Shown in pieces: positions 10,131-42,217 of a stretch of DNA of 64,000 bases; the first letter of the stretch is position 1; every line of letters starts with the position of its first letter. Location: contig NZ_RYYL01000006.1 of NCBI RefSeq assembly GCF_004378855.1, forward strand, positions 1 through 64,000, written 5' to 3'. The stretch is from Campylobacter sp. US33a. GTDB taxonomy: Bacteria; Campylobacterota; Campylobacteria; Campylobacterales; Campylobacteraceae. A model generated the notes under the pieces. It did no database searches, was not told where the DNA came from, and saw only the letters and a list, made by a program, of their open reading frames with translations. A program made the translations under genes and the position numbers.

Positions 10131-10131
10131 A

Positions 10132-15500: not shown

Positions 15501-15779
15501 GTTAAAATCGGTTCAGTAGATCAGTTCCAGGGTAATGAATTTGATATTGTTTTTCTATCGACTGTGCGTAGTGGAAATATTAATAATAATCTATCGCCGC
15601 AAAAAGCTTTTGGCTTTTTGGCAGTACCAAATAGACTATGTGTTGCTATGAGTAGACAAAAAAAATGTCTCATCGCAGTAGGAGATATGGCATATTTTAA
15701 AAGCAATTTAGCTAAGCAATATGTTAGGGGGATGTATGAATTTGCCTCACTTTGTGAAACTAAGGGGCGTGTATTATGA
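12519..15779 (+). CDS. Superfamily 1 Upf1/DNA2-like helicase
   Basis: A 1086-aa protein. Residues 1-450 include a coiled coil near 145-175 and a beta-rich segment. The helicase core follows: QGPPGTGKTT (G473 onward), IIDEAAMVNP (D782-E783), GDHRQLP, FRTHPLLG, SVDQFQGNEFD and VAMSRQKKCL. These are motifs I to VI of Upf1-like 5'-3' RNA/DNA helicases. A long insertion separates motifs Ia and II. Upf1-like helicases accompany some CoCoNuT-type McrBC systems with TerY-P genes, as far as I recall. The gene overlaps the kinase by 11 bases and the next gene by 4. Confidence 0.9.
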   Translation: MKFDGIKTDRTFIKQVEIDNDKVKVELLGILHSVDSMELDGVNETIKFRYIDTYNEIELEFKRSSNAIVKVLKVKNKIATIKIIIFAMQLRCIYEKLYIKLDERLLNKQLKENDFLITINAQNYIAVASGNNAKDTLFLYESQKIQNDINKLQRTIEKDIENKVELEQKIQDLEHQKQNIQVDEIAFTLLSDTKQLAIERLNMTDDRIIYKATKLMEKTQKEIAGLRLIRLKEPFEFKDGSVRASIKDALEDGDLVSTYLDIWDKYAIKEGDFLLKKARDIGEIEIKEADRFRLKVEIDLRGKMSENDFICIMENTPPYLENKEIDFKTYIQENITQEKLKGKNESNKIQTYKIERITSESIELEKQDNMNLEDLKGKKFSLSIFGDFVALKRKYKARQRMLEGKSANPILPMIFASEVSENLKQILNEQQKNTYPPLSDSVEQKIFKTKPTENQIEAIRMAINTKDIAIIQGPPGTGKTTILNAIIERLNELIDMDLNKRGSIFIGGFQHTAVENLIQRMNLNGIPTPKYGKKTNEIDSLENYDYIMEWSRKIANNIIVKEDSKSIKEFKELAANYCKRPNQSKQKEILQKIINTKELKLKECRDIARYLLDINNTNKIENDLSLIYAIRSNELSFQDDGIDRNYDLLESEFRELLTDKEKQILKNKFFCQDLIKLKNDLIRRFTPKPKFEKEKPNSEVLDLIEKVINVFNNLSIESRINVVLAEFKQKLQSNPFALKNMLKDYSIAFSATIGQSSGKEVLDAKGVQENNEQYSYDTVIIDEAAMVNPLDLFLVLVLAKHRIILVGDHRQLPHMFHEQVLKEMEDDTKEGDSIESELLKESMFGFLKVRAQELEKIDGVKRFITLNNQFRTHPLLGHLVSNIFYKEHNEGYESPRPESDFSHKLKDIEDIPAVWINLSKDMGIDSKNGTSRMRKCEIDMIESKLVEYMSSEAGSGLSYGIISFYRAQTDAIKDRIEKLKQNLNSITIKEALEKVKIGSVDQFQGNEFDIVFLSTVRSGNINNNLSPQKAFGFLAVPNRLCVAMSRQKKCLIAVGDMAYFKSNLAKQYVRGMYEFASLCETKGRVL

Positions 15780-17518: not shown

Positions 17519-17529
17519 AGGAGATGATT

Positions 17530-19830: not shown

Positions 19831-19831
19831 A

Positions 19832-22800: not shown

Positions 22801-23122
22801 AAAAGATAGTAAAATATTTTTAGTAACACCGTTATTAGTAAATATACTAGAAGTATTACTATCATTACTACGACTTCGCCAAAAAGGCTTTGATATACTC
22901 AACCCTAGTGATAAAAATACCAAAGAATTAATACAAAAATTGATTGAGCTCAATGAATTCATTATGAAAAAGCAAGTCGTACTAAGAAGTTATCTAAACT
23001 TGGAAGTAAAAAAGCCCAGCGCTTATGAAAAAATGCCAAACTTAATTTATGCTTTAATTTCGCTAATCAAAGGTGAAAATAGCGATTCAATCAAAATAAT
23101 AGGAGTAAATGATGGAACTTAA
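19832..23122 (+). CDS. DUF2357/McrC-like partner protein with cold-shock-like OB fold
   Basis: A 1096-aa protein, partner of the McrB-like gene. The N-terminal 200 residues carry the DUF2357 pattern: MPISRAKELDSKSIGWIARQ, then VLGVKRYGFRDNPENRVLK. The middle is helical and lysine-rich. Residues 757-820 (ATVYSIKKDYCFAKD, then KEGDGIFLIKEETKKGYKGE) resemble a cold-shock/S1-like OB fold that could bind RNA or single-stranded DNA. I do not find a clear PD-(D/E)xK nuclease triad, so the nuclease role may have moved to the last gene of the cluster. ATG 19832 is preferred (AAAGG upstream); the frame is open from 19799. Confidence 0.75.
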   Translation: MNNLSKLYKPENKVLLETISLLNFAIGFDKSIASFKESDLFGFLERVQNYDFKNYDDLFYILDMFEDSFWHISQYISSQIRRTHVVMPISRAKELDSKSIGWIARQNGITIQQKLAQGKVLGVKRYGFRDNPENRVLKIVLMRLVAIAEFRAFDEGLRNKIVQFIRNNLNEVNHKAQITPNNILLHHKHYAKFYKIYKWLNHLEHVMSDFQSFKRNVNITRENLKKFIALSLLHKNTNVRILPSDLSYSQKDYSVHFETKWLLDCDIEKYLNSENDLKSFKNKCLNFIETNNALKHIAPPPDKINSSKSKIFIDIFRLYPMLYVNSKYIAMPLLLKQKINNKIINANHTKIIDMNNPFYTLAESLLLKNSEVFNVFLRDIKEFVGESNILYYILPDYINVFDFNDKHKSIRAYFNQAFFINKSILAAAKMLFNGELKEKDTLLYFQKNNMEEIYVTPILVRYKDELKESKSKGLYLEKHPSKQYKNNIKNKDKIVQKLLKKCLQNGVKALVQNNIKYYKNNRIYDIPKLPKEEVNNDIHEVKLLYKNSHDLFKSDIKIIQDDPKENLEYYKELIEQKENGFILWGEKLPKLDMGVSDGIKDEKFNLVNDNDELDFKNEICIKDQFIIPANAEKIIAPLFLEDKNINYSMVLESDMMPFKEEVRCRLTLQYSYDDENIYTLIFRPLDGNLQQMQAKWHKGVMKQIRKDMSHIYPPYPPIKRIDELQHYPKKDGSGENNLFEWVETSIKNIQQLTPKKVQATVYSIKKDYCFAKDVLRHEVICYKDQFINQTEWENIKEGDGIFLIKEETKKGYKGELISTRNTHIQLSPEKIKQATKILYSMRFPMISIFNGHSLRADDMPNSFRTNISNFIEFMDNKNINDDTLKNEFLLFCSMMHDCSPIGQYLVDNFKDIKNHRLLAYSIGDAKQPWQEKILQLVFEDKFIKQIPILAISLWRSENLVFDKIHNDKIHTLINESIQWMNNIKTPVYQPKDSKIFLVTPLLVNILEVLLSLLRLRQKGFDILNPSDKNTKELIQKLIELNEFIMKKQVVLRSYLNLEVKKPSAYEKMPNLIYALISLIKGENSDSIKIIGVNDGT

Positions 23123-24863
23123 ACTTACAATCATTAATCGTGCCGTGCCAGGTAGTGGTAAGACTACAGCTCTAAAAACCATAGAGGATGCCTTAGATGA
23201 ATACGGTGTAGATACAAAAAGTGATTTTAAGGTTCACTCTACAGATGAATTTTTCATGGTTGGAGATAAATATGTCTTTGACATAGCAAAACTCAACGAT
23301 TATCATAAAGAGAATTTGGAGAATTTCAAAGAAAGTCTGATAATGGGTGTAAAAATTGTAATTTGTGATAATACAAATTTATTGCCTTGGCAGTGTAAAG
23401 CCTATACGGACTTGGCTAGATTGTATGACTACAAGATAGTTTTTTTAAACATAGAACCAAAGAGTTTAGAAGAGCATATGGAAACACAAAAAGTAACAGT
23501 GCAAAATCCTTCTGCACATAATGTCTCGCAAGATATTTTGGAGCGTAATATAAAGGATTGGAGAATTTATAATGATTTATTGGATAAAAATACGCCTATA
23601 AACCCAATAAGGCATAGACATTATGTATGGGATAGAGAAAATAAATGCAGAAAAGATGTTGGAGTAACAGAGCATTTTGATACTGATTTTGTTATCTCAC
23701 TCCCATCTTGGTGGGATAAAGAGATTATTAAAAATCGTCTTAGAGAGATTATTAAAAGCATAGGTAAATATGATTGTATCTTTCATACCTGTGGAAATGA
23801 AAAAATGCCACTTGTATGGGCATTAAGAGGGTTAAATGCTGAGGATAATACAATGTGTATTCTGATACACGGAAAAGACCATAAAGAAATAATTGGTGTA
23901 GCACAAAAGTTTACACAAAATGCTAAAATTTATAATATTGAGGTAGATGTTTTTAATCTCCAAGAAATTAAAAATAGAATAAAGGATTTTATAGAAAAAC
24001 ATAATTTGATGAGTAAAAAGATAGCCTTTAATCTAACAGGAGGAACAAAAATTATGCTTTTGGCTGGATTAAGTGTAGCAACAGAACTGAAAAAGAAAGC
24101 ATTTTATATAGATACGAATCAGAATCTATATTCATTAAATGACAATATATTAAAAGAAAGGATACGGCCACTATCTAGGGTAAGTGATTTTTTAAAAGCT
24201 AATACACAAGGACTAGAAATTATACAAGATACTGATATGAATAAAATAAAAAGTAAGATAGGTGCAACTCGCCTATTATTTGACAATAAAGATAAAATAC
24301 GTGAGTTATATAAAAGATTGTACGAATATATAGACTTTGAGACATTTAAAAGTAAAAATTTTGATATCCAAATTGATTCTTTGTGTGTTAGTTTGAATAA
24401 TAAAAATTTGATATTGAAAGATAAACATCAAAGTGTAACTATAAATGGAGATGTGGATGAGCTTGTTGCTTATATTATAGGTGGATGGTTTGAAGAATAT
24501 GTCTACTTAGAGCTTTTGCCATTGGTTGAACAAGGTATTATTTATGATTTGCAGATAAATACAAAGTTAAGAAATAAAACCCTTGCAAAATATCGACATA
24601 GAGATTATCAAGAGTTTGATATATTATTTACAGATGGATATAAACTTTTTGCTATAGAATGTAAAAGTGGCGCCATAAAAGCAGAACATATAGAGAAGTT
24701 AAGCCATATTAAACGACAATATGGAGAGCTTGGTGTAATTTGTATTTTGATTGCATTATATATGCCTCACCATCCAACAACTAAAAAGAAAATTAAAGAT
24801 AGTAATTTCAATGTAGTTAATGACGACTATGCCAAAAATATAGTGAAGTTAATCAGCGGTTAA
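23109..24863 (+). CDS. P-loop kinase - CARF-like - PD-(D/E)xK nuclease fusion
   Basis: A 584-aa protein in three parts. Residues 1-170 are an AAA_33/zeta-like P-loop kinase (RAVPGSGKTT, then IVICDNTN). Residues 190-350 are a CARF/DUF1887-like Rossmann fold with the ligand-loop pattern NLTGGTKIM (N308 on). Residues 460-560 are a PD-(D/E)xK nuclease: FDILFTDG (D504), then AIECKSG (E517, K519). The last two parts match Card1/Can2-type effectors, which bind cyclic oligoadenylates; no CRISPR array or Cas10 is seen here. It is probably the signal-gated effector of the system, perhaps with its own nucleotide kinase. AGGAG (23101-23105) precedes ATG 23109; it overlaps the previous gene by 14 bases. 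Confidence 0.8.
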   Translation: MMELKLTIINRAVPGSGKTTALKTIEDALDEYGVDTKSDFKVHSTDEFFMVGDKYVFDIAKLNDYHKENLENFKESLIMGVKIVICDNTNLLPWQCKAYTDLARLYDYKIVFLNIEPKSLEEHMETQKVTVQNPSAHNVSQDILERNIKDWRIYNDLLDKNTPINPIRHRHYVWDRENKCRKDVGVTEHFDTDFVISLPSWWDKEIIKNRLREIIKSIGKYDCIFHTCGNEKMPLVWALRGLNAEDNTMCILIHGKDHKEIIGVAQKFTQNAKIYNIEVDVFNLQEIKNRIKDFIEKHNLMSKKIAFNLTGGTKIMLLAGLSVATELKKKAFYIDTNQNLYSLNDNILKERIRPLSRVSDFLKANTQGLEIIQDTDMNKIKSKIGATRLLFDNKDKIRELYKRLYEYIDFETFKSKNFDIQIDSLCVSLNNKNLILKDKHQSVTINGDVDELVAYIIGGWFEEYVYLELLPLVEQGIIYDLQINTKLRNKTLAKYRHRDYQEFDILFTDGYKLFAIECKSGAIKAEHIEKLSHIKRQYGELGVICILIALYMPHHPTTKKKIKDSNFNVVNDDYAKNIVKLISG

Positions 24864-29514: not shown

Positions 29515-30118
29515 TTAAATACCATTATATTGTTCTAGTAATTTTCTAAAATAATATAGATTACTTTGAGTTAGATTATTTAGTGAATTTTTATCAATCT
29601 CACACTGATCATTGCAAAAAACAGCGATATTGCAAAAATACTTTTCAGCATTTTCTATACATCCACCTTTATTTAATATTTGAGAATATAAATCGTTAGT
29701 AGATGATTTAAAATTCTTACTATCGCTATATCCTAATTTTTTATAAAAATTTGTTTTATTATTTTTACTATTATCTACAAAATGAAATCTAAGCCAATCT
29801 TCAAAATCATCAAGAGTAAGAAATAAATGTATATCTTTTGACTTTTTTATATGTTTTATAAGTTTTTCTAAAATTTTTAACTCACTAATATCGCTTTTTG
29901 CTCTATCTAGATCCATTACAATAATAAGCTTATCAATATAAGGTGCTTTTTCTATTTTATAAAGAATGTTTTTATATGAATTATTATTTTTTAAATTTTT
30001 TTACATCTATTTTAACATTATCATAATTTAGATATTTAAAAAGGGAATTAAAATAATCTTCTTCTGTTTTTACCTTCGCACCAAATCTGTATACTGGGCT
30101 TTGTTTTTTATTCATCAT
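29515..30118 (-). pseudogene. rloB: RloB-family protein, frameshifted
   Basis: On the minus strand ATG 30118 or 30115 opens MNKKQSPVYRFGAKVKTEED, then stops after DVKKFKK. In another frame the protein continues YIDKLIIVMDLDRAK, LFLTLDDFEDWLRFHF (the RloB pattern of an acidic strand followed by a [FE]-W-L-x-x-H-F box), to TTA 29515. The break lies in the A6/A7 runs (29987-30002 on the plus strand); removing one base restores about 200 aa. RloB has a Toprim-like fold and always follows RloA. It overlaps the rloA stop by about eight bases. It may be phase-switched rather than dead. Confidence 0.72.
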
Positions 30119-31250
30119 AAAGCCCTTTTAAATAATCAATATATGCTTTTTTCTTTTCGCTTCTAATGTCATAATCGTAGTAAGTTCTTATCTTACTCTC
30201 TAGGTGTTGATCTTTTTGAATTAAAAATATTTGTTGTGAATTTAAAAAACTAACATCAAATAATAAAACATTATGAGATGAAATAATTAATTGTCCATTA
30301 TGGTTTTCATCTGTATTAATAAGATTGTTAAATATAAGTATTAGCGCCAAAGTGCTTATTGAAGAATCTAATTCATCAATGAAAACAATTTTTCCTTCCT
30401 TGATAATTTGGGTTATTTTATCTGCAAAATATACTATTTTTTTAATACCTTCTGATTCTATTTGATAATTAAATTTCTTTCCATTGCGAACAAAAAAGAT
30501 TTCGTATATATTCTTTCCATCTTTTTCATACTTTTTAAACTCAAAATCTTTTATAGTTTTATCTAGCAATTGAAAAATTTCCAAAATACTTTCTTTGTGT
30601 TCTAAAAAATATTTCTTTTTATTTTCTTCAAATTCAAAATTATATTTTTTTGAATAATTACTATTCATATAAACTTCAATATTGTTTATAAGATTTACAA
30701 ATATTTCTTTTTGCTCTATTTCAAAATCTTTTAATAAGTAAAATATATTTTCACTAAGATTTCTTGAAAAAAATGACTCTAATAGCTTATTATCTTCTTT
30801 ACTGTAAATATTAAAAATAGCCTTATCATTCTCAAATTCATATATAATTTTATTATTTTTCAAAAAAGATTCTTTTAGGATATATTTTTTATCAAACTCT
30901 ATCGAATATGTAAAAATATCTTTATTGTTATTAGATAACTCAATACTTAATTTTATAGAATTTGAATTTTCATTAAAGGCATTGTCTGTTAAATGCTCTC
31001 TTAGGGTATGAGAAAAGCCATATTTAATTATATTTAGTAAAATTTTTACGCCTATAAAAAAGTTAGTTTTTCCGCTAGTATTCTTTCCAAAAAAAACTGC
31101 TGATTTCATAGGTTTCCCAGCTTGTGATAAATTAAAATTATACTCATATTTTGTATTTTTCAACTTACTTTTTGGCTTTGCTGTAAAATCAACAATTTGT
31201 GTTTCTATTCCAAAAGAATATAGACCAGATATTTCTATTTTTCTTAACAT
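30108..31250 (-). CDS. rloA: RloA-like AAA ATPase (abortive-infection type)
   Basis: A 380-aa ABC-type ATPase of the AAA_15/AAA_21 group. It has MLRKIEISGLYSFG at the start, Walker A FGKNTSGKTNF, an ABC-signature-like region, Walker B IVFIDELDSSIS, and a switch histidine in IISSHNVLLFD. In Campylobacter such genes (rlo, for restriction-linked ORFs) sit beside restriction systems, and with RloB-like partners they act as phage-defence modules resembling OLD/retron-linked ATPases. ATG 31250 is chosen: GGAAAA lies before it and the family begins here; the longer frame to 31439 is membrane-like junk. Confidence 0.82.
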   Translation of the reverse strand: MLRKIEISGLYSFGIETQIVDFTAKPKSKLKNTKYEYNFNLSQAGKPMKSAVFFGKNTSGKTNFFIGVKILLNIIKYGFSHTLREHLTDNAFNENSNSIKLSIELSNNNKDIFTYSIEFDKKYILKESFLKNNKIIYEFENDKAIFNIYSKEDNKLLESFFSRNLSENIFYLLKDFEIEQKEIFVNLINNIEVYMNSNYSKKYNFEFEENKKKYFLEHKESILEIFQLLDKTIKDFEFKKYEKDGKNIYEIFFVRNGKKFNYQIESEGIKKIVYFADKITQIIKEGKIVFIDELDSSISTLALILIFNNLINTDENHNGQLIISSHNVLLFDVSFLNSQQIFLIQKDQHLESKIRTYYDYDIRSEKKKAYIDYLKGLYDE

Positions 31251-31746
31251 AATATTTTCCTTTTGTGTTATTATAAAGCATTGATAGTTAATATAAACAT
31301 AAAATATGTTTATATTTAAATATATAGTTTTAAAGTCTGTTTTGATATTTTTTATAATATTCACTAAAGAATTAAAGCTATAAAAATGAATTAATAAAAA
31401 TACATTCTTAATCAAGGTAAAAAATAAACAACTTAGCAAATTTCAATATTACACTTCATAGGCATATAAAATATTCGTATAAAACTAAATCCACAAAAAT
31501 ATATTTGCTCTTAATGATTTAAATGAAACATTCAATAAATATATTTTGAAATATTGTTAAGAATAAAATAAGTTATTATGAAGCCCTTTGAAATTAATAT
31601 AATAATTATGGCTTCAAAGAAAACTAAAGCATAAAAACTGTATAAGAAGATATCTCTATAAAGAAAACACTACTGATCCCATAAGCTTTCTAGTGGGTAT
31701 AATATCCATTTATAATTACACAAAATAAAAATACAAAACTTTTATA
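31251..31746. other. Non-coding gap between rloA and the ISP gene
   Basis: About 500 bases of AT-rich sequence without a supported gene. It should hold the rloA promoter (reading left). I see no strong hairpin or repeat except the duplicated segment that begins at 31747. Confidence 0.5.
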
Positions 31747-31887
31747 TTTATAAGTTACAAAGTTAATTTTTGATATATTCTTTATATTATTAGCTTAGGA
31801 GTTTTAATGAGTGCAAACGAAACTACTTTTGAAATCATCTTAGAAAAATTAAAAAAAGCAAATTTAAACACTAGATCGAAGGGATCT
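31747..31887 (+). repeat. Direct repeat, right copy: promoter and first codons of the ISP gene
   Basis: This is the functional copy of the segment found at 29071-29211. It contains the sequence ttgatatattctttatatta that probably supplies the -10 region, the ribosome site TTAGGAG, and the first 27 codons of the restriction gene. Confidence 0.88.
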
Positions 31888-34800
31888 ATGTTTGAAAAAC
31901 TTTCAAAACATCTTTTAAAAGAAAAAGATACAGCAAATATTTATAAAAATATTTATCTTTGGGATGAATGGGATAAAAAAGATGGGCAAGATCGTGGTAT
32001 AGATCTAATCATTCAAACAAAAGACGATGATTATATTGCAGTTCAATGTAAATTTTATGAAAATTCAAAAGTAGATTTTAAAGATTTAAGTACTTATTTT
32101 AGCAAGTTGCAAAGTGGAATAGGGGAGATTAAATTTAGTAAAGGCATTATTATAAGTGCTAGCGATCTCACTCAAAACGCTAAAAAAGAGATGGAGCAAA
32201 TTTTAAAAAACACACCTATAGAATTGATCACTTTAGAAGATTTTTTAAGCTCAAACATAAGTTGGGATAAATTTGATCCAAATAATTCTTTAGAACTACC
32301 AATTACTGCAAAGAAAAAACCAAGAGAACATCAAATACAAGCCATAAATAACACAAAAGAATATTTTGCAAACAAAAATAACACAAGAGGCAAGCTTATC
32401 ATGGCTTGTGGTACTGGGAAAACTTTTACATCTTTAAAAATTATAGAAGAAATTACTCCTAAAAATTCCATTGTTTTATTTTTAGCTCCTAGTATAGCTT
32501 TAGTAGGGCAAACATTTAGAGAATATTGCAAAGAGAAAACTGATGATTTTGTTGCTTCTATTGTATGCTCAGATAGTAAATCAGGTAAAAGCATTGAAGA
32601 TGATATAGATATTTTAGAATTGCCCATTCCTGCTTCTACTGATACACAAAGCATTAAAAAAGCTTACGATATAGCTAAAAAAGACAACAAAAGATTTATC
32701 ATCTTTTCTACTTATCAAAGTGTTGAAAAAATCATGCAAGCTCAAAAACAAAACGATCTAGATGAGATTGATCTAATCATTTGTGATGAAGCTCACAGAA
32801 GTGTAGGAAATTTATATTCAGGTAAGGAAAAAGATAAACTAAATACTTTTACTCTATGCCATAGTGATGAAAACATCAAAGCAAAAAAAAGAATTTACAT
32901 GAGTGCTACTCCAAAGATTTACTCTAGTTCTCAAAAAAGCAAAGCTTTGGAAAGTGATAATGAAGTATTTTCTATGGATGATGAAGAAATTTTTGGAGAT
33001 GAAATTTATAGTATTAATTTTAGAGAAGCAGTTGAAAAAGGCTTACTCACCGATTATAAAGTTATTATTTTAGCTATCAAACAAGAAGGTATTGCAAACA
33101 TAGCAAATACAGCCATAGCAAAATTAAAAGATGAGAAAAATGTAGATGAAAAATATGTAGATATAGACTTTGTATCTAAAATCATAGGTACGCATAAAGG
33201 TTTAGCAAGAAATGATTTAGTTGCTCTTGATGAAAATAACCAAATAGATAATGACTTTTTAGAAGAAATGGATAGTAATATTTCAAGAAGAGTTATAAAT
33301 TTTTGCAAAAGCATAAGAGATTCTAAAAATATAACCAATTCTTTTAAAATTATTATGCAATGTTATGATGAAGCATTAAAAAAAGATTCTTTTAAAAATC
33401 TTGATATAAACATAGATCATGTTGATGGAACTATGAACTCCAATATAAGATTAAATAAACTAAATAATCTCAACTCCCCAAAAGAAAATACTTGTAATAT
33501 ACTAAGCAATGCAAGATGTTTAAGTGAAGGTGTGGATGTACCTGCTTTAGATAGTGTAGTATTTTTTGATGGAAGAAATTCTATGGTAGATATAATCCAA
33601 TCAGTGGGTAGAGTAATGAGAAAAGCTCCAAATAAAAAAACAGGTTATATCATACTGCCTTTAGCATTAAGTGAGAATGAGCTTTCAAATTTAGATGAGG
33701 CTATAAAAAATACCAATTTTTTAAATATATGGAATATCTTAAAAGCCCTAAGAAGTCACGATGATACCTTAGTAGATGAGGCTGTATTTAAAGAAAAGAT
33801 CAAAATAGCTGTGGCTGATTATGTGGCAGATGAAAGCTCAAATAATACAGATAAAAACTATGAGCCAAGCTTGTTTGATAGCTTTACCTTAAGTGAGCTT
33901 GCAAACACGATGTATAATGCCATACCAACTAAACTTGGTGATAAAGGTTATTGGCAAAGCTTTAGTGCAAAAACAGCTAAAATAGTAGAAAAATTAAATA
34001 TAAGATTAAATGCTATCTTTAAAGATCATCCTGAAATTTTAGAAGAATTTTTAACTTCCTTAAAAGAAAATATTCATCCAAATATCAAAGAAGATGAAGC
34101 CATAGATATGATATGCTCTCACATTATAACTAAACCTATATTTGATGTTTTGTTTGATAAGAATATGGATGATAATCCTATAGGAAAAGCTCTTGATAAA
34201 GTAAATCAAAAGTTAAATACCTTTGGTTTAGATGATGAAGAAACAAGATCTTTAAAAGCTTTATATAAAAACGTAGAAGAAAATGTAAAATTAGCAAAAA
34301 GTCAAAAAAGCAAACAAGAACTCATTAAAAACTTATACGATACCTTCTTTAGATCAGCTTTTAAAAAACAAGCTGAAAAATTAGGCATAGTTTATACTCC
34401 TATACAAGTGGTTGATTTTATACTTCATTCTGTTAATGAGCTTTTAAAAAGACATTTTAATACAGATTTTAACGATGAAAATGTAAAAATCTTTGATCCA
34501 TTCACTGGTACAGGAAGTTTTATCACAAGATTATTAAGTAAAGAAAATGATTTAATTAGTGATGAAAATTTCAAAAACAAATACGAAAAAGCAATTTTTG
34601 CTCAAGATATTATTTTGCTTGCTTATTATATAGCGCTTATTAATATCACTCAAACGGGCAATGAAAGAATAAATACTTTAGATAAATTTAAAAATATAGC
34701 CTTAGCTGATAGTCTTGATTATCTAGATAAAAAAATACAAGATAATGGTTTATTTGCTTTAGAATTTAAAGATTTAGAAGAAAATAAAAAGATCAAAGAC

Positions 34801-36576
34801 TTAATAGTCAATGAAAAAATCAAAGTTATTATAGGCAATCCTCCTTATTCAGCTGGAGCAAGTAGTGCAAATGATAATAATGCAAACATTTCTCACCCAA
34901 ATTTAGAAAAACGCATCAAAAACACTTATGGTAAAGAATCAAGTGCAAACTTAGCTAAAAATACTAGAGATACACTAATCCAAGCTTTGCGTATGGCAAG
35001 CGATAAAATAGAAGATAATGGCATTATAAGCTTTGTAGTAAATGGAGGCTTTATAGATGCAACAAGTGCTGATGGCTTTAGAAAATGCGTAGCTAAAGAA
35101 TTTAGTGATATTTATATTTTAAATTTAAGAGGAAATCAAAGAACTTCAGGTGAAACTTCAAGAAAAGAAGGTGGAAAAATATTTGATAGTGGCTCAAGAG
35201 CAAGTGTAGCTATAGTATTTTTTATAAAAGATACAAATGCTAAAACAAATAAAATTCACTATTATGATATAGGAGATTATCTAGATAGACAAACTAAGCT
35301 TGATAAATTAGAAAATTTTAAAAGTGTATTAAATGTGCCTTTTATAAATATAATCCCAAATGAAAAAGGCGATTGGATCAATCAAAGAGGAGGGGACTTT
35401 GATAATTTAATGCCTTTAAAAAGCGATAAAAATGAATATGGAATTTTTGCTATAAATGCCACAGGTATAGCAACAAATCGTGATAGCTGGGCTTATAATT
35501 TTTCCAAAGAAAAGCTTGCAAATTCTATGCAAAAATGCATAGCTACTTATAATGAAGACTTAGCTAAATTTGATCATCAAGCATTTTTAGAAAAAAATAA
35601 AAATGTTAAAAAATCAGAACTTTATAAAGAGTTAAGAGATGAAGATATAACCATAGATGAAACTAAAATTTCTTGGACTGCTGGTCTGAAACAAAATTTT
35701 ATAAATAATGAAAAAATTAAAGAATTTAATCAAGAAAATATAAGAATTAGTTTTTATCGTCCCTTTACTAAAGAATATCTTTACTGGGATAAAACTTGGA
35801 ATGAAAGACAATCTCAATTTTCAAAGTTATTTTCTAAAAATACAGATGAGAATTTGTTGATAAATATCTCACTAAAAAGTTATAATTTTTCAGCTTTAAT
35901 TTGCAATTTATTAAGTAGCTTAGATTATATAACACACACTCAAGCTTTTCCGCTTTATTTTTACCAAGAAAATGGAAGTAAAGAATACGCTATAAGTGAT
36001 TTTGCTTTAGATGAATTTAAAAAACAATTAAAAGATGAAACTATAAACAAAGAAGATATATTTTATTATATCTATGCGATATTTCATCATAAAAGTTATT
36101 TGGAAAAATATAAATTTGAACTTTCAAAAGAAGCTCCAAGAATACCTATAAGTAAAGATTTTAAAAACTTAAGCATTTTGGGTAAAAAACTAGCCATTTT
36201 ACATTTAAACTATGAAAATAATGAAATGTTTAAAGAAGTAGAATTTAAAGATGGAGTTTTGGCTGATACAGACAATGATGAGTTTTATAAAGTCACCAAG
36301 ATGAAAAAACTAGGAAATGATATTTTTTATAATCACAATATCACTATAAAAAATATACCAAATATTGCTTATGAATATAAAATCAATGGCAAAAGTGCGA
36401 TTGATTGGATTATCGATAGATACCAAATAAGCATAGATAAAAAAAGTTTAATAGAAAATAATCCAAATGATTATCAAGGTGGTAAATATATCTATGAACT
36501 TCTTTTAAAAATCATTGATTTATCTATAAAAAGCGTTGATTTGATAGATGAGATTAGTAAAATGGAGTGGGAGTGA
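31807..36576 (+). CDS. Type ISP restriction-modification enzyme (LlaGI/LlaBIII-like)
   Basis: A single 1589-aa polypeptide with all restriction and modification activities, the size of LlaGI-type enzymes. The N-terminal Mrr-like nuclease (residues 20-115) has GIDLI and AVQCK. The SF2 translocase follows: Walker A CGTGKT at 201-206, DEAH at 327-330, MSATP, and QSVGRVMRKAP. The gamma-class adenine methyltransferase has DPFTGTGS at 897 and NPPY at 1011-1014. The C-terminal 450 residues are the target recognition domain. Such enzymes bind an asymmetric site, translocate, and cut after head-to-head collision. The gene is intact and overlaps the reading frame of the next gene. Confidence 0.92.
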   Translation: MSANETTFEIILEKLKKANLNTRSKGSMFEKLSKHLLKEKDTANIYKNIYLWDEWDKKDGQDRGIDLIIQTKDDDYIAVQCKFYENSKVDFKDLSTYFSKLQSGIGEIKFSKGIIISASDLTQNAKKEMEQILKNTPIELITLEDFLSSNISWDKFDPNNSLELPITAKKKPREHQIQAINNTKEYFANKNNTRGKLIMACGTGKTFTSLKIIEEITPKNSIVLFLAPSIALVGQTFREYCKEKTDDFVASIVCSDSKSGKSIEDDIDILELPIPASTDTQSIKKAYDIAKKDNKRFIIFSTYQSVEKIMQAQKQNDLDEIDLIICDEAHRSVGNLYSGKEKDKLNTFTLCHSDENIKAKKRIYMSATPKIYSSSQKSKALESDNEVFSMDDEEIFGDEIYSINFREAVEKGLLTDYKVIILAIKQEGIANIANTAIAKLKDEKNVDEKYVDIDFVSKIIGTHKGLARNDLVALDENNQIDNDFLEEMDSNISRRVINFCKSIRDSKNITNSFKIIMQCYDEALKKDSFKNLDINIDHVDGTMNSNIRLNKLNNLNSPKENTCNILSNARCLSEGVDVPALDSVVFFDGRNSMVDIIQSVGRVMRKAPNKKTGYIILPLALSENELSNLDEAIKNTNFLNIWNILKALRSHDDTLVDEAVFKEKIKIAVADYVADESSNNTDKNYEPSLFDSFTLSELANTMYNAIPTKLGDKGYWQSFSAKTAKIVEKLNIRLNAIFKDHPEILEEFLTSLKENIHPNIKEDEAIDMICSHIITKPIFDVLFDKNMDDNPIGKALDKVNQKLNTFGLDDEETRSLKALYKNVEENVKLAKSQKSKQELIKNLYDTFFRSAFKKQAEKLGIVYTPIQVVDFILHSVNELLKRHFNTDFNDENVKIFDPFTGTGSFITRLLSKENDLISDENFKNKYEKAIFAQDIILLAYYIALINITQTGNERINTLDKFKNIALADSLDYLDKKIQDNGLFALEFKDLEENKKIKDLIVNEKIKVIIGNPPYSAGASSANDNNANISHPNLEKRIKNTYGKESSANLAKNTRDTLIQALRMASDKIEDNGIISFVVNGGFIDATSADGFRKCVAKEFSDIYILNLRGNQRTSGETSRKEGGKIFDSGSRASVAIVFFIKDTNAKTNKIHYYDIGDYLDRQTKLDKLENFKSVLNVPFINIIPNEKGDWINQRGGDFDNLMPLKSDKNEYGIFAINATGIATNRDSWAYNFSKEKLANSMQKCIATYNEDLAKFDHQAFLEKNKNVKKSELYKELRDEDITIDETKISWTAGLKQNFINNEKIKEFNQENIRISFYRPFTKEYLYWDKTWNERQSQFSKLFSKNTDENLLINISLKSYNFSALICNLLSSLDYITHTQAFPLYFYQENGSKEYAISDFALDEFKKQLKDETINKEDIFYYIYAIFHHKSYLEKYKFELSKEAPRIPISKDFKNLSILGKKLAILHLNYENNEMFKEVEFKDGVLADTDNDEFYKVTKMKKLGNDIFYNHNITIKNIPNIAYEYKINGKSAIDWIIDRYQISIDKKSLIENNPNDYQGGKYIYELLLKIIDLSIKSVDLIDEISKMEWE

Positions 36577-36604
36577 AAATGCAAATAAATACAGGTTCTT
36601 CATT

Positions 36605-37945
36605 ATGAGTTTAGAAAATGAAATTTTTTCACACATGAAGATTTTCTTTAAAATATATTTTGAAGAAAATAAAAAAGGAAATTATCTTCCTGATAAGTTT
36701 AAATGCTTTGGCGAAGTTGAAAATATCGATAAAAAAATTTCAAATCTAAAAAAAGAATTGAAAAAGAATGAAGACAAAAAAGTCAAAGAAGAAATAGGTA
36801 ATTGTTATAGAAAAAAAATAGAAATTTTAAATAAATTATTTTGTGAAATACAAAATAAAATAGACAGTGAAAAACTAAATATCCACATAGATATTAAGAG
36901 TATAAAAGATAAAGATACTTATATTGTAGATACTAAAAATGAAGCTTTATTTTTTGCGTTGAAATTTGCACAAAAAGATATACAAAGATCTTTTAAGGTT
37001 AAACAATCTGATAGAAATGCAATAATCGAACAAATAAAATGTTTAATAGATGATGAAATTCCTAAATTTATTATAAGACTTGATATAAAAAATTTTTATG
37101 AAACTATACCTCATGATAAGTTAAAAAAAATAATTAAAGAAAATTATATTTTAGAGCCAACATCAAAAAAAATCATTTTTGCTATATTAAAAGAATATAG
37201 CAAATTATCCAACAATCAAAATATAGGAATCCCTAGAGGAATAGGGATTAGTGCTTATTTATCTGAACTCTATATGAGAGATTTTGATAAAAAAGTTGAT
37301 AGTTTAGAAGAAGTTGTATATTATGCAAGATATGTAGATGATATTATAATAATTAGTACTTCGAACATAGAAAACAAAATTGAAAATTTATTAGAAAAAG
37401 AAACACAATTATCTTTTCATAATAGCACAAGCCAAAAAAGAAAAGTCATTGATACTTCAAAAAATGGACAGTTACATTTTGATTTTCTTGGATATGCTTT
37501 TAAAAAAAAAGAAAAAGAAAAATTATCAATTGGTTTAAGTAAAAATAAAATAAAAAAATATAAAAACAAAATAACCAAGACCATAGAATGTTACAACAAA
37601 CAAAGTAAGCACAATGAAAAAAATGCTAGAAAAATGCTAGAAAAAAGACTAAAATACTTGACCGGAAACACAGCCTTAAAAGGTGTTAAAAAACATATAT
37701 ATACGGGTGTATTTTACTCAAATAGGTATGTTAACAATATTAGTTGTTTTCAAGGATTAGATGCTTTTTTAAAATACAAAATAAATAAAATAAATCCATA
37801 TGAAAAATTAAATTTTGATTTAGAAAAGTTAAAAAGCAAAATAATACAAAAATATTCTTTTGTAAAAAATTTCGAAAGCAAAAAGATTTTTCGTTTGAAA
37901 AGTAATGATGACTTAAAAAAAATATCTTTGGCATGGAAAAGTTAA
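36605..37945 (+). CDS. drt3a: Defence reverse transcriptase, first of a pair (Drt3a/UG3-like)
   Basis: A 446-aa reverse transcriptase without maturase or nuclease domains. Motif A is IIRLDIKNFYETI (D160), motif B is GIPRGIGISAYLSELYM, and motif C is YARYVDDIIII (Y243-V-D-D246), so the catalytic triad is complete. A long N-terminal helical part precedes the palm. ATG 36605 is chosen as it removes an unlikely segment overlapping the ISP stop. The next gene, one base away, encodes a second, different reverse transcriptase, an arrangement known for defence reverse transcriptase type 3 (UG3 plus UG8). Group assignment is by gene order and size, not by a tree. Confidence 0.83.
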   Translation: MSLENEIFSHMKIFFKIYFEENKKGNYLPDKFKCFGEVENIDKKISNLKKELKKNEDKKVKEEIGNCYRKKIEILNKLFCEIQNKIDSEKLNIHIDIKSIKDKDTYIVDTKNEALFFALKFAQKDIQRSFKVKQSDRNAIIEQIKCLIDDEIPKFIIRLDIKNFYETIPHDKLKKIIKENYILEPTSKKIIFAILKEYSKLSNNQNIGIPRGIGISAYLSELYMRDFDKKVDSLEEVVYYARYVDDIIIISTSNIENKIENLLEKETQLSFHNSTSQKRKVIDTSKNGQLHFDFLGYAFKKKEKEKLSIGLSKNKIKKYKNKITKTIECYNKQSKHNEKNARKMLEKRLKYLTGNTALKGVKKHIYTGVFYSNRYVNNISCFQGLDAFLKYKINKINPYEKLNFDLEKLKSKIIQKYSFVKNFESKKIFRLKSNDDLKKISLAWKS

Positions 37946-37946
37946 T

Positions 37947-40322
37947 ATGAAATACAAAAAATACAAAATAAGATACAAAAAAGAAAGAGTTGTTTTATCA
38001 GAAATTTTACCTTATGAAGTTCCTTTAATATTTTCAAATAAAAATTTTTATAATTTTTTATTAAAATATAAAATAGAAATAAATAATTATTTTGATAATT
38101 CTACAAATATTAAAAAAAGTTGCGAAAAAATACTAAACATACTTTTTATAGATAGAAAATTTGATGATTATACCATACCTTTTCACTTTAAAATTCCACA
38201 CAAAACAAATGAATATAGAAAATTATCAATCATACATCCAGTACATCAAATCAAAGTTATGAATTTTTATGATACTTACAAACAAGCTATTTTGTATTTT
38301 TCAAGTAAAAGTGAATTTTCCATTAGAAGACCTTATAAAGTTGCTAATTTATTTTATAATAAAAATGATTTTACGAATACAAAAAACATAGATGACGAAT
38401 TAAATAACAGTATAGAAATAAAACATCACAAAGAAAAATATTTTAAAAGTTTTTTTGCTTATAAAAAATATAGTCATATATATATGTTTTACGAATCATA
38501 TGAGTATCAAAAAAATGAGAAATTATTTAAAAAATTATATAAATTTGACATTAGCAAGTGTTTTGATAGTATATACACACATTCTATCGCTTGGGCTATC
38601 TATGACAAAAAAACAATAAAGGATAATTTAAATAAAATTAATAATACATTTGCTGATGAATTTGATAAATTAATGCAAAATATGAATTATAAAGAAACAA
38701 ATGGTGTCTTAATAGGGCCTGAATTTTCTCGTATCTTTGCTGAATTAATATTGCAAAAAATAGATAAATTAGTTCTAAATAAATTAACAGAAAATAAAAT
38801 ATTACACAAAAAAGACTATGTAATTTTCAGATATGTAGATGATTATTTTCTTTTTTACAATGAAGATGATGTAAAAAATTTGATAATCCAAACTTTTAAT
38901 AATGAGTTACAAAAATATAAGTTTTATCTAAATGAAACTAAAATGGAAGAATTTACTAAGCCTTTTGTCACCAATATAACAATAGCTAAGAAAAAAATCA
39001 AAGATTTATTAAAAGAATTTGATTTCGATAACAACAATAAACACACAATAAGCTCGAAAGAAATGATTATCAATTTTAAAGCAATTTTAAAAGAAAATGA
39101 AATTAAATACAATGATATTTTAAATTACACTTTAGCAATCATTGATAAAAAAATAGATTTTATTAAGAAAGATATAAATAAAAATAAATATATAATTTTT
39201 GAAAATATTATAGATAATCCTAACAAAATTAACACTGAATTAATTTTAGTAAAAATGAAAAAAAAATTAAATAATATTAAGAAAAATAAAACAAAAGACA
39301 TACAAAAAGATATTGAAAGTATAATGCAAACTATTGATATTCATATAAAAAAATTAAAAATGAAAAAAGATCTTGAGCATGATACACTTGAAAAAGACTT
39401 TATTGAAAGTATTAATAATTGTGAAAAAGATATTGAAGATTTAAAAGCTAGTGCTCATGAATACAAAGAAATCACTGAATATATCAATAGTAGCTTAGAT
39501 GAACTTAGTATGTTAAAAGATTTTTATGAAATATATATAAATACAAAAGATAGTTTTAAAGAATCGATTAATGAATTTGATGAACTTTTTTCTTTTAATG
39601 AAAATGATGAATTTAATAATATAAAATCTTCAATTAAAAATGACTGCTTAAAAATAAAAGATAAACTTTTTGCTCATTTGAAAGAAATGTTAAAATTTGT
39701 TTTTTTTATTTATTCAGAATCAGATAAAACTTCTGCTACGGTTAAATTATCTTTAATTCTTGCTAAATTAATTAGCTTTATGAATCATAATTATTTTGAT
39801 AAATATTTAAAAAACAAACTTTATAAACTTGTTTTTGATGAAATTCATCATTTATTAAAAAGAAATAAAAGCAGAAAATATTCACACAATCAAAATTTAT
39901 ATTTATTAATTAACTTAAAAGAGATAAAAAATTACAAAAAACTTGATTTTAATATTCTAAAAACAATTTTCTTAAGTGAAGAAATGAATTACTTTGATAT
40001 TGTAATACTATTGTATTATATAGAGAATGATCCTGAATTTAAAGAGATAAAAGAACAAATCAAAGAAAAAATTATTAATAAATATAAAGATTTTAATAAC
40101 AAAAATACAGAACTAACATTATTGAGTATGGATATTCTTGCTTGTCCTTTTCTTGATAAAGATTTTAAAGTAAAAATTTTAGAAAATTACAAAATTGATG
40201 AAAGGGGTTTACAAAACTATATTATAAAATTTTCCATGAAACAAAAATTTTGGTTTGTAAAATGGAAAAACGTTGATATATTAAAGGAGCTCGAAGAAAA
40301 GAAATCTTACGAAGTTTACTAA
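37947..40322 (+). CDS. drt3b: Defence reverse transcriptase, second of a pair (Drt3b/UG8-like)
   Basis: A 791-aa protein. The reverse transcriptase palm lies in residues 60-340: KFDISKCFDS (motif A, D201), GVLIGPEFSRIFAE (motif B) and FRYVDDYFLF (motif C, Y296-V-D-D299). The C-terminal 450 residues form a large helical, lysine-rich domain with no motif I know. It starts one base after the first reverse transcriptase, so the pair is co-translated. In type 3 defence systems both enzymes and a small RNA are needed. Its end carries the promoter for that RNA: a tataat box sits nine bases after its stop. Confidence 0.83.
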   Translation: MKYKKYKIRYKKERVVLSEILPYEVPLIFSNKNFYNFLLKYKIEINNYFDNSTNIKKSCEKILNILFIDRKFDDYTIPFHFKIPHKTNEYRKLSIIHPVHQIKVMNFYDTYKQAILYFSSKSEFSIRRPYKVANLFYNKNDFTNTKNIDDELNNSIEIKHHKEKYFKSFFAYKKYSHIYMFYESYEYQKNEKLFKKLYKFDISKCFDSIYTHSIAWAIYDKKTIKDNLNKINNTFADEFDKLMQNMNYKETNGVLIGPEFSRIFAELILQKIDKLVLNKLTENKILHKKDYVIFRYVDDYFLFYNEDDVKNLIIQTFNNELQKYKFYLNETKMEEFTKPFVTNITIAKKKIKDLLKEFDFDNNNKHTISSKEMIINFKAILKENEIKYNDILNYTLAIIDKKIDFIKKDINKNKYIIFENIIDNPNKINTELILVKMKKKLNNIKKNKTKDIQKDIESIMQTIDIHIKKLKMKKDLEHDTLEKDFIESINNCEKDIEDLKASAHEYKEITEYINSSLDELSMLKDFYEIYINTKDSFKESINEFDELFSFNENDEFNNIKSSIKNDCLKIKDKLFAHLKEMLKFVFFIYSESDKTSATVKLSLILAKLISFMNHNYFDKYLKNKLYKLVFDEIHHLLKRNKSRKYSHNQNLYLLINLKEIKNYKKLDFNILKTIFLSEEMNYFDIVILLYYIENDPEFKEIKEQIKEKIINKYKDFNNKNTELTLLSMDILACPFLDKDFKVKILENYKIDERGLQNYIIKFSMKQKFWFVKWKNVDILKELEEKKSYEVY

Positions 40323-40330
40323 TCTTATAG

Positions 40331-40336
40331 TATAAT
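40331..40336 (+). promoter_or_regulatory. -10 box of the DRT3-type small RNA
   Basis: tataat at 40331-40336, preceded by ttatag, begins nine bases after the stop of the second reverse transcriptase gene. Transcription would start near 40342-40344, exactly where the structured segment begins. Confidence 0.65.
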
Positions 40337-40341
40337 TCAAC

Positions 40342-40450
40342 ATACGCATTCACAGATAAATTTTCAAACACACACATATGCGAAATAAACTAGTCTGTGG
40401 TTTATTTTATAAACCTAAGAGATTTACTTTTCTTAGGTTTATTTTGTGAT
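40342..40450 (+). ncRNA. Candidate DRT3 small RNA with ACACACACA tract
   Basis: A compact structured segment follows the promoter. Stem 1 pairs cgcat (40345-40349) with atgcg (40378-40382). Stem 2 pairs cacaga (40351-40356) with tctgtg (40394-40399), with wobble pairs at both ends. The two stems cross, so they form an H-type pseudoknot, and acacacaca (40368-40376) is exposed in the loop. A 12-bp hairpin ends the RNA. A type 3 defence reverse transcriptase needs an associated RNA; as I recall recent work, it is copied at an AC-repeat template into GT-repeat DNA. Position, promoter, structure and tract all agree. Confidence 0.78.
40409..40446 (+). terminator. Terminator hairpin of the small RNA
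   Basis: ataaacctaaga (40409-40420) and tcttaggtttat (40431-40442) form a perfect 12-bp stem with a 10-nt loop, followed by tttg. It could both terminate the RNA and be its 3' structural element. Confidence 0.7.
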
Positions 40451-40486
40451 CGATTTGATAAATTATTATTTTTTATAAATTATTGC

Positions 40487-40600
40487 TATAATGTACTATC
40501 GTCACGGCAAATAAGATCCGTTCGAGCTTGTAAAAATTACACAAATAATAACTAAAACACCACTTCCTTGACATAATCTAATAAGACAAGCTCGTAAATC
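40487..40600 (+). ncRNA. Second candidate structured RNA
   Basis: A second tataat box (40487-40492) is followed by gtcacggcaaataagatccg and a 9-bp stem, cgagcttgt (40523-40531) with acaagctcg (40586-40594), enclosing a 54-nt loop. The stretch is less AT-rich than its surroundings. No open frame is seen. It may be an additional RNA of the reverse transcriptase system or an unrelated small RNA or attachment-type element. I know no family for it. Confidence 0.4.
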
Positions 40601-40656
40601 GATTTTAATTATTTAATGCTATTGATTTACTTTATAGTATATTTTTGATTTTAAGC

Positions 40657-40914
40657 TTATTTTTGTTTATATTTGGTGGTATTTAATTGCAATAAAATCT
40701 TTATAATATTTTCAAAGTCTTTAACATCTTCATTTAATAAAGTACCTTCATTTTTAGTTTCTTTAAAGACTCTTAAGACAAATTTGATACAGCCATTTTT
40801 TCTGTTAATGTGTCTTGTATCATAAGGATTTTTTAAAGAATATTTAGTGCAATTTACTACTCAAGTGTGAATTATTTTTTCTAATCTATCACTTTTGTTT
40901 TGTAAGAGTTTCAT
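40657..40914 (-). pseudogene. Small lysine-rich protein gene with an in-frame stop
   Basis: On the minus strand ATG 40914 opens MKLLQNKSDRLEKIIHT, then TGA at 40863-40861, and the same frame continues VVNCTKYSLKNPYDTRHINR and FVLRVFKETKNEGTLLNEDV to TAA 40659-40657. One codon change would give an 85-aa protein. The family is not recognised. It is transcribed toward the reverse transcriptase genes. Confidence 0.45.
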
Positions 40915-41486
40915 CTAGTTTTATCTCATTTTTAGAATTATCAGCGGATACAGTTTTTTTGAAAAATATATTTTTAAACACAGAATAACTTGCCTTTTTT
41001 AACAAAAATTTATAATATTTTATCATACAAAAATTACAAAATCATAACATTTTCATTTTTTAAAAAAAACACAGTAAATCTCAAAAAAACACTAAAGGTA
41101 ACGAAAACATATAATATATACTTACAAAGTAATGTATAGGTGTACGATTATTTTTAACAAAAATGACAAATTTTATAAAAATCTATAAAAAATACACCAA
41201 AAATTTATCAAAATATACGAAATATATACTTTTTAGGCTAAAGGTAATGAAAATGACATATCTGCTTAGCATGGAGTAATGATTGTTTTAAAATAGGCTA
41301 TTTTTTATAAATTTTAACCTATAAAACTCCAAAAATAAAGCTTTAAAACACAGCTTAAAATTTCCATTTTACTAGACTTTTTATCAAAACAAAAAAGGTA
41401 AGATTTTTTGAAAAAATTAACTTGGATTTTTTTGGATATTTTTTATAACTTTAAAAAAATGAAGATATATTTTAAGAAAAAATGAG
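40915..41486. other. AT-rich non-coding stretch
   Basis: About 570 bases without a supported gene. It contains repeated A/T runs and imperfect copies of short words such as aaggtaa-gaaaa. I see no firm signal; it may hold regulatory or decayed sequence. Confidence 0.4.
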
Positions 41487-41655
41487 AGTATTTTTAAGCT
41501 AGTGATTCAACTAAAATAAATTTCATTTTTATAAAAAATAAAAAAGATAAAATCAGATTAATTTTTATTTTAATATCAATCATGATTACCTCCTTATAAA
41601 TTAATAAAATATAAAAAGGATCGTAGCTCCAGCTAATCGCTAGCTTAAAAATACT
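41487..41655 (-). repeat. 16-bp inverted repeat enclosing a micropeptide gene
   Basis: agtatttttaagctag (41487-41502) and ctagcttaaaaatact (41640-41655) are perfect inverted copies. On the minus-strand transcript the first pairs with the last, closing a loop of 137 nt that contains the ribosome site and the whole peptide frame. A smaller tagct-cc-agcta hairpin lies near 41624-41635. A 5'-3' long-distance pairing of this kind is the hallmark of AapA-type toxin mRNAs of Helicobacter and Campylobacter, where it blocks translation until the 3' end is trimmed. Confidence 0.6.
41494..41583 (-). CDS. Candidate type I toxin: 29-aa hydrophobic peptide
   Basis: On the minus strand a near-perfect Shine-Dalgarno AAGGAGG (41589-41595) lies five bases before ATG 41583. 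The peptide starts MIDIKIKINLILSFLFFIKM and ends in ESLA: one hydrophobic, positively charged helix. The stop codon lies in the 3' arm of the inverted repeat. Such a strong ribosome site is unusual in this AT-rich island. Size, charge, hydrophobicity and the enclosing inverted repeat fit a type I toxin-antitoxin module. On the opposite strand gataaaat near 41545 could drive an antisense RNA across the start. Sequence similarity to known AapA peptides is not evident. Confidence 0.5.
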   Translation of the reverse strand: MIDIKIKINLILSFLFFIKMKFILVESLA

Positions 41656-42056
41656 AAGCGATATAATTTTATAATAATTTTAAATTAAAATAATTTTTTT
41701 ATATTTTTGATAAAAAGATTAAGATAATAAAATAATATTTGCTTAACCCTAAAAGCAAAAAACCGAAAAAGCTGAGAAACCATTATTTTACCAATACTAA
41801 TAATTATAAAATTTCATATGTTTTAATGGTTTAACTAATTTTTAAGTCTTATGAATAAAATAAATTAATGTATTTAGTTTTATACTGTCTTTTTTTAATA
41901 AAAAAAGAAATAGAGAATGAATTAGCAAATTGAATATAAAAAAGTAAAATGTATTTTTTATTTTATTCTTTTTTAAATATTTTTATAAAAGTCAATTTCT
42001 TTTTTAGATTATAATGATAAATTATATTATTTTAATATGGAGTGTTAAGAATTAAT
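41656..42056. other. Non-coding stretch at the right end of the island
   Basis: About 400 bases without genes. It includes an inverted repeat aaaccatta (41777-41785) with taatggttt (41824-41832), which may be a weak hairpin. It probably also carries the promoter of the 29-aa peptide (reading left, tataaaattat near 41660-41672). Confidence 0.4.
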
Positions 42057-42090
42057 TTTTGAGAAAAAAACCGCTACCAAAACCGCTCCC
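42057..42090. repeat. Short direct repeat near right island end (CCGCTACC motif)
   Basis: Right-hand partner of 993-1026; 31 bases are identical. It lies 38 bases inside the right attachment site. Confidence 0.6.
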
Positions 42091-42128
42091 TGAGTTTTTT
42101 AAAAAATTTAAAAAACACTTTGAAAAGT

Positions 42129-42185
42129 AATGGTGCCCAAGGTCGGACTCGAACCGACACAAGGTTGCCCTTACCAGATTTTGAG
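42129..42185. repeat. Right attachment site within tRNA-Leu
   Basis: Identical to 842-898. It covers the 3' part of the tRNA up to the anticodon loop, so the tRNA gene stays whole at this end after integration. Confidence 0.93.
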
Positions 42186-42217
42186 TCTGGCGCGTCTACC
42201 AGTTTCACCACTTGGGC
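42131..42217 (-). tRNA. tRNA-Leu (anticodon CAA)
   Basis: On the minus strand an 87-nt tRNA begins GCCCAAG and ends CTTGGGCACCA, with CCA encoded. The D arm contains GGTGAAACTGGTAGAC. The anticodon stem CCAGA/TCTGG holds the loop CTCAAAA, giving anticodon CAA. The long variable arm (TGGTAAGGGCAACCTTG region) is typical of leucine tRNAs, and GGTTCGAGTCC is the T loop. It reads codon UUG. It is the integration site of the island. Confidence 0.95.

Follow-up and report, generated by a model that had tools for sequence, protein, structure and literature searches.

A Campylobacter DRT3 locus with a conserved, predicted pseudoknot around its AC template

Introduction

Type 3 defence reverse transcriptase (DRT3) systems combine two reverse transcriptases (RTs), and their mechanism is already known from Escherichia coli. 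They are further characterised by a 6:6:6 complex. In the E. coli system (EcoDRT3), Drt3a copies the ACACAC of an RNA into poly(TG), and Drt3b uses its own Y666 as primer and its residues E22 and R241 to produce poly(CA) with no nucleic-acid template (PMC13174585, 2026). EcoDRT3 is toxic without RecBCD, and its trigger is the RecBCD inhibitor Gam (PMC13174585). The published covariance model of the DRT3 RNA (subgroup 9) was built on EcoDRT3 and its close relatives (PMC13174585), and neither that paper nor a review (PMC13314766) uses the word pseudoknot. The present analysis concerns the DRT3 locus of Campylobacter sp. US33a, consisting of drt3a, drt3b and the RNA region just downstream, within a stretch of 64,000 nucleotides (contig NZ_RYYL01000006.1, positions 1 to 64,000; hereafter the window, whose numbering is used throughout). 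Sequence comparison makes it highly probable that this locus is a complete DRT3 anti-phage system of a large clade with compact RNAs, in which a pseudoknotted scaffold RNA lies downstream of drt3b. The new part is a conserved and covarying predicted pseudoknot that frames the template, found in a clade outside the solved proteins; the window is the most compact member of that clade.

EcoDRT3 (Wang et al. 2026, PMC13174585; structure 26cz; L019/L106 type) shares with the window the UG3 and UG8 pair with its YVDD boxes, a downstream RNA with an ACACAC template, the glutamate and arginine nucleotide gates and the C-terminal priming tyrosine. It differs in Drt3b, which has ~33-35% identity to the window protein, belongs to another branch of the tree and is without a large insertion, and in its RNA, where the AC tract lies 128 nt past the stop codon with a long-range closing helix (GTTAAAAGG/CCTTTTAAC) and no conserved counterpart of the second stem, S2, described below; the E. 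coli host also has RecBCD. DRT10 and telomerase RNA (PMC12632851) likewise place a short template in a loop whose 5′ boundary is structured and add repeats by realignment, but their templates are 9-nt or telomeric and a single RT works without a protein-templated second strand. The DRT2 noncoding RNA (PMC12596737) resembles the window in that a class 2 RT is bound to a pseudoknot-bearing RNA, but it lies upstream of its gene, is the rolling-circle template of a coding repeat and has an unrelated fold.

The reverse transcriptase pair

The original prediction of two unlike RTs with intact YVDD boxes, one base apart, was confirmed. The stop codon of drt3a ends at 37945, the drt3b ATG is at 37947 and each protein has one YVDD box. 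The coding features are as follows.

36605-37945, + strand: drt3a, UG3, class 2 RT, 446 amino acids from the ATG at 36605
37331-37342, + strand: YVDD box of Drt3a, one intact box (coordinates derived from residue numbers)
37947-40322, + strand: drt3b, UG8, class 1 RT, 791 amino acids, protein-templating polymerase
38016-38018, + strand: Drt3b E24 codon, equivalent to EcoDRT3b E22 (dA gate); E in 103/108 and D in 5/108 homologues
38217-38219, + strand: Drt3b R91 codon, equivalent to EcoDRT3b R71; invariant in alignments A3 and A4
38730-38732, + strand: Drt3b R262 codon, equivalent to EcoDRT3b R241 (dC switch); R in 108/108
38832-38843, + strand: Drt3b YVDD catalytic box, residues 296-299; D298 and D299 in 108/108
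39183-39602, + strand: helical (coiled-coil-like) insertion in the alpha-repeat domain of Drt3b, approximately residues 413-552 (~140 residues)
40317-40319, + strand: Drt3b Y791 codon, last residue, equivalent to the EcoDRT3b priming tyrosine Y666; Y in 107/108

The first protein matched PADLOC Drt3a (4.4e-101) and scored 330.6 bits against NCBIfam NF041747 (cut-off 200), and the second matched PADLOC Drt3b (1.6e-175) and scored 610 bits against NF041748 (cut-off 350), which places the two RTs inside UG3/UG8. Other RT equivalogs remained below their NCBIfam cut-offs (DRT2, 67.8 of 390 bits; DRT4, 108.6 of 450; group II intron RT, 82.4 of 300). The best sequence match of Drt3a among solved proteins is chain 9z6y_A, itself a Drt3a, and the best matches of Drt3b among Protein Data Bank structures are 26cz and 9z6y; 9z6y contains both partners of one DRT3 complex and 26cz is a second Drt3b. 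An earlier in-frame ATG of drt3a at 36548 lies inside the upstream restriction-modification (RM) gene, and 36605 is the likelier start because the sequence shared with a same-species genome ends at 36563.

Residue conservation was scored over 108 aligned full-length Drt3b homologues. The window protein retains all of the residues known for priming and for protein-templating poly(CA), and because E24, R91, R262, the YVDD box and Y791 are all kept, the protein template can be read from the sequence alongside the RNA template, the only one of the two named in the original prediction. The AlphaFold2 model of Drt3b (mean predicted local distance difference test score 78, predicted template modelling score 0.77) has an RT domain followed by an alpha-repeat domain, with an all-helical C-terminal half, and the nearest solved folds among those compared are AbiK, DRT6, UG15 and DRT4. 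The insertion is modelled as low-confidence helices. The stretch between residues 405 and 575 is 170 residues long in the window protein, whereas 107 homologues have at most 65 there (median 19).

The AC tract and the RNA fold downstream of drt3b

The elements of the putative RNA follow the drt3b stop codon closely.

40331-40336, + strand: TATAAT, possible -10 box of the RNA (weak), 8 nt upstream of S1
40345-40349, + strand: stem S1 5′ arm, CGCAT, pairs with 40378-40382
40351-40357, + strand: pseudoknot stem S2 5′ arm, CACAGAT, pairs with 40393-40399 (GTCTGTG)
40368-40376, + strand: ACACACACA, predicted template for poly(TG), 9 nt, 45 nt past the drt3b stop
40378-40382, + strand: stem S1 3′ arm, ATGCG, one nt past the template; this gap is 0-2 nt in 56/59 structured homologues
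40383-40407, + strand: hairpin H3, 8 bp, AAATAAAC at 40383-40390 and GTTTATTT at 40400-40407, with a 9-nt loop at 40391-40399
40409-40442, + strand: 12-bp terminator-like hairpin, arms 40409-40420 and 40431-40442, then a weak T run

More than 100 DRT3 loci were gathered from genomes, plasmids, E. coli and viral contigs, 109 of them with a full-length Drt3b; in the homologue scan of genomes the window protein alone gave no match and an alignment query was needed. The AC repeat noticed in the original prediction is conserved, with (AC)3 or longer within 300 nt downstream of the drt3b stop in 108/109 full-length loci as compared with 4/106 in the next 300 nt, used as control. The sole locus without a tract, from E. 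coli MS 145-7 (L018), has IS1 directly after drt3b (L018 4982-5679), and this DRT3 is presumably inactive. The motif ACACACAC is expected 0.28 times by chance across both strands of the whole window. A second copy at 35932 falls within the RM gene and was taken as chance.

S2 consists of six Watson-Crick pairs (40351-40356/40394-40399) and one G-U pair (40357/40393), and its 3′ arm (40393-40399) lies in the H3 loop. The crossing stems had been predicted at exactly these positions, whereas the 8-bp hairpin whose loop carries the S2 3′ arm had been overlooked. A topology search was defined by S1 adjoining the AC tract, an S2 start ≤5 nt from S1 and an S2 partner within a hairpin loop. The window scored 45.5, a value reached in 7 of 5000 dinucleotide shuffles. 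An Rfam search of the RNA returned no matching family, only a chance small nucleolar RNA match.

The ends of the RNA are marked unequally. The 12-bp terminal hairpin was found as predicted, and it belongs to four terminator-like sites in 5 kb where 0.4 are expected. The TATAAT box said to lead into the RNA is present, but it is not clearly beyond chance (~4% of shuffles do equally well) and does not establish a promoter; -10-like matches in the homologues overlap the conserved EVY-stop codons, so that a promoter of the RNA's own is not demonstrable there. According to the original prediction, type 3 systems make GT/AC repeat DNA from an AC template in the RNA. This agrees with the published system for poly(TG), the product of Drt3a, but not for poly(CA), which Drt3b makes without a nucleic-acid template (PMC13174585).

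Covariation of the pseudoknot among homologues

Loci aligned on the AC tract share the same order of elements. The S1 5′ arm is followed within a few nucleotides by the S2 5′ arm, often by a small hairpin, and then by the tract; the S1 3′ arm begins 0-2 nt past the tract and is followed by a middle hairpin and then by a last one with a loop complementary to the S2 5′ arm. In 59 of the 81 loci with short spacing this topology scores above all 40 shuffles of the locus itself, and several of the remainder can be fitted by eye with a single bulge. Each position of S1 and S2 shows several pair types across loci, reversed ones included.

The pairing was measured in two ways. When 22 members were aligned with MAFFT, in-register pairing held for 89.7% of cells, as against 38-46% when the partner is slid by 1-3 columns, and 6 of 7 S2 pairs change on both sides; these 22 loci were preselected for having the topology, which biases the alignment somewhat towards it. 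The swap test is free of this selection bias, because the S1 arm and the hairpin were picked regardless of S2; it set the real partners of 59 non-redundant loci against swapped ones. The pairing between 5′ windows and hairpin loops had a mean score of 12.25 for the real partners and 8.95 for the swapped ones, and 0 of 20,000 permutations reached the real value. Conservation of the stems in homologues, which had been proposed as a check, thus extends to both S1 and the crossing S2.

Two RNA classes on the Drt3b tree

In the Drt3b tree the window falls within an 86-row clade with a Shimodaira-Hasegawa-like approximate likelihood ratio support of 100 and a long stem branch. Its members come from Bacteroidota, Pseudomonadota, Campylobacterota, Acidobacteriota, Nitrospirota and Margulisiibacteriota; as the sample is weighted towards relatives of the window, the share of this clade need not be representative of all DRT3. 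The AC tract lies 24-77 nt past the stop in 80/86 rows. The window conforms to this compact class, with S1 directly after the AC tract and an S2 that joins the stretch just past the S1 5′ arm to a hairpin loop.

Both solved Drt3b proteins (26cz, L019 type; 9z6y, L109 type) lie outside the clade. In their branches the AC tract is 101-261 nt downstream of drt3b, and most loci have a long helix closing across the tract (median best-helix score 24, as compared with 15 in the compact class). The structures 9z6y/9z6z, which we take to be the DRT3 of Deng et al. 2026 (L109 type), represent the same system, and both window proteins match by sequence; the L109-type RNA differs from that of the window in having its AC tract 123 nt past the stop and a long closing helix (GTTGAAGCAACC/GGTTGCTTCAAC). 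A search for a conserved S2 in the long-spacing branches gave scattered matches only, which are not kept even between the close relatives L019 and L106. The branches of the two solved Drt3b proteins have RNAs that look unlike that of the window and of most sequences sampled.

The nearest tree rows to the window are two other Campylobacterota loci (L022 and L023), with Drt3b identities of 48-49%, the compact RNA class and the AC tract 45-52 nt past the stop. Unlike the window, they keep the middle hairpin and have no large Drt3b insertion, and by eye their S2 partner is in the last hairpin (CCGAAC/GTTCGG and CTGAAC/GTTCAG).

E. coli itself has compact-class DRT3 loci (L020 and L021) whose S2, just after drt3b, is TCAGGC/GCCTGA by eye, so the compact class could be studied in a native E. 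coli host. A plasmid-borne E. coli locus of this class (L008 2965-5008) has its drt3b annotated as two pieces and is probably frameshifted.

Alternative readings of the window RNA

Several observations weigh against the fold drawn for the window. In the minimum free energy fold, the S2 5′ arm is instead paired with the tail beyond the terminator. S1 and H3 are separated by 0 nt, as compared with 21-50 nt in the other 58 structured loci, and the hairpin directly 5′ of the tract that is present in 45/59 is missing. The hairpin rule of the swap test selects the terminator, not H3, in the window. A covariance model of the downstream regions had been proposed as a check, and such a model, built from the nested helices of the relatives with no pseudoknot, does find L022 and L023 (38.3 and 32.5 bits) but matches the window weakly (14.2 bits, E 0.0013 in 501 bases, 40345-40437), too weakly to count as proof. 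The model would also align the window hairpins otherwise, with 40383-40407 as the middle and 40409-40442 as the last hairpin. Because of this correspondence, either the middle hairpin has been lost in the window or the S2 contact has shifted to the loop of the middle hairpin. The window RNA is the shortest of the clade, and the middle hairpin it is missing is common in the clade though not defining.

These differences could mean that the locus is an ordinary DRT3 that in this strain depends on S1, the AC tract and the 3′ hairpin alone, S2 being a chance complement or having been replaced when the middle hairpin was lost. The unusual layout, the weak covariance-model score and the shuffles that reach the window score all fit such a reading, yet covariation shows S2 to be strongly conserved in the clade, and the S2 of the window begins at the expected place and ends in a hairpin loop; a fortuitous S2 is accordingly considered improbable. 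Much the same differences could mark a decaying, inactive copy that has lost RNA elements and acquired a large insertion in Drt3b. The missing middle and 5′ hairpins and an insertion unique among 108 homologues point that way, but both long reading frames are intact, the catalytic, templating and priming residues are all kept and the 9-nt template tract is among the longer ones, so that decay, too, is an unlikely account. That the downstream structure is a mere 3′ untranslated region and terminator of the drt3ab mRNA, and not a template RNA at all, is barely credible. A terminator-like hairpin is present and a separate promoter is unproven, as that explanation would have it; against it stand the tract shared by all but one of the full-length loci, which is a proven template in E. 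coli DRT3 (PMC13174585), and the covarying pseudoknot that surrounds it.

Proposed mechanism and the host nuclease

For a complete DRT3 system with a pseudoknotted scaffold RNA, the chemistry and the RecBCD link are taken over from the published E. coli work. We infer that the window RNA is transcribed and that the region just 3′ of drt3b folds as a small pseudoknotted scaffold. S1 would close immediately 3′ of the ACACACACA tract, and S2 would start past the S1 5′ arm and pair with the loop of the next hairpin, an arrangement that would confine the AC tract in a short loop between helices. Drt3a may then bind the RNA and copy the tract repeatedly into poly(TG), the dinucleotide template realigning trivially after every round and the flanking helices S1 and S2 serving as putative template boundaries. 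Drt3b, primed by Y791, would synthesise poly(CA) in a template-free reaction in which E24 and R262 impose the alternation, and the two strands would anneal to repetitive double-stranded DNA. A host end-processing nuclease is proposed to keep this DNA low until phage infection blocks the nuclease, and in this host AddAB would take the place of RecBCD.

RecC was not found in the host genome. Contig C11 (61800-63667; L140, L143) carries an AddB-like PDDEXK_1 gene and then an adjacent AddA-like UvrD helicase. Loss of RecBCD makes EcoDRT3 toxic and Gam triggers it (PMC13174585); since the window's host is without RecC and has AddAB-like genes, AddAB may be the natural candidate for the guarded nuclease. 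RecC scored above the cut-off in 0/2 and 7/49 other DRT3 genomes (7/52 with the window's genome counted). As most DRT3 hosts checked are without RecC, the published trigger, based on RecBCD, cannot hold in general in its present form, and a role for AddAB or another nuclease is a direct prediction for such hosts.

A broader proposal is tentative and perhaps doubtful: a DRT3 branch spanning many phyla may set both template edges by a pseudoknot and not by a long closing helix, as an independent bacterial counterpart of the way telomerase RNA uses a template boundary and a pseudoknot, with the Campylobacter copy as a minimal, AddAB-guarded form whose Drt3b insertion is a new interaction surface. 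A covarying pseudoknot round a template of six to ten bases offers a small, testable RNA for how an RT confines and resets its template, as in telomerase.

Genomic context

DRT3 occupies an exchangeable unit within a defence island. A second same-species genome (L139) matches the window up to 36563 and again from 40583, and in the slot of DRT3 it carries two GmrSD-type genes, kinase-like fragments and a longer Type ISP RM gene whose added C-terminal part is DUF3800-like. Because a same-species genome carries other genes between matching flanks, DRT3 is read as an exchangeable cassette in a defence slot. Among 49 genomes of the genus, one has a clear DRT3b; among 397 of the phylum, few do. The cassette and its neighbours are listed below.

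12519-15779: Mokosh-like (MkoA) helicase
17515-19830: PDC-M26A-like protein
19799-23122: DUF2357 protein
23109-24863: Card1-like CARF nuclease with a kinase-like N-terminus
30108-31439, - strand: AbiLi-like AAA ATPase, adjoining a short RloB-like open reading frame (ORF) at 29515-29916
31807-36576: Type ISP RM gene, directly upstream of the RT pair
36564-40582, + strand: DRT3 cassette as exchangeable unit, 4.0 kb, absent from the same-species genome that holds other genes in the slot

The upstream defence-island genes at 7695-24863 include an FtsK/HerA-like ATPase and a Ser/Thr kinase-like gene. The AbiLi-like ATPase and the RloB-like ORF are probably an AbiL-type pair, with the RloB part perhaps truncated. 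Downstream, 40450-42130 is ~1.7 kb without an ORF of ≥60 codons, followed by a tRNA-Leu (42131-42217, - strand) and a flagellin-family gene; the region possibly consists of decayed genes, a remnant of an ORF that is intact at L139 13880-14416.

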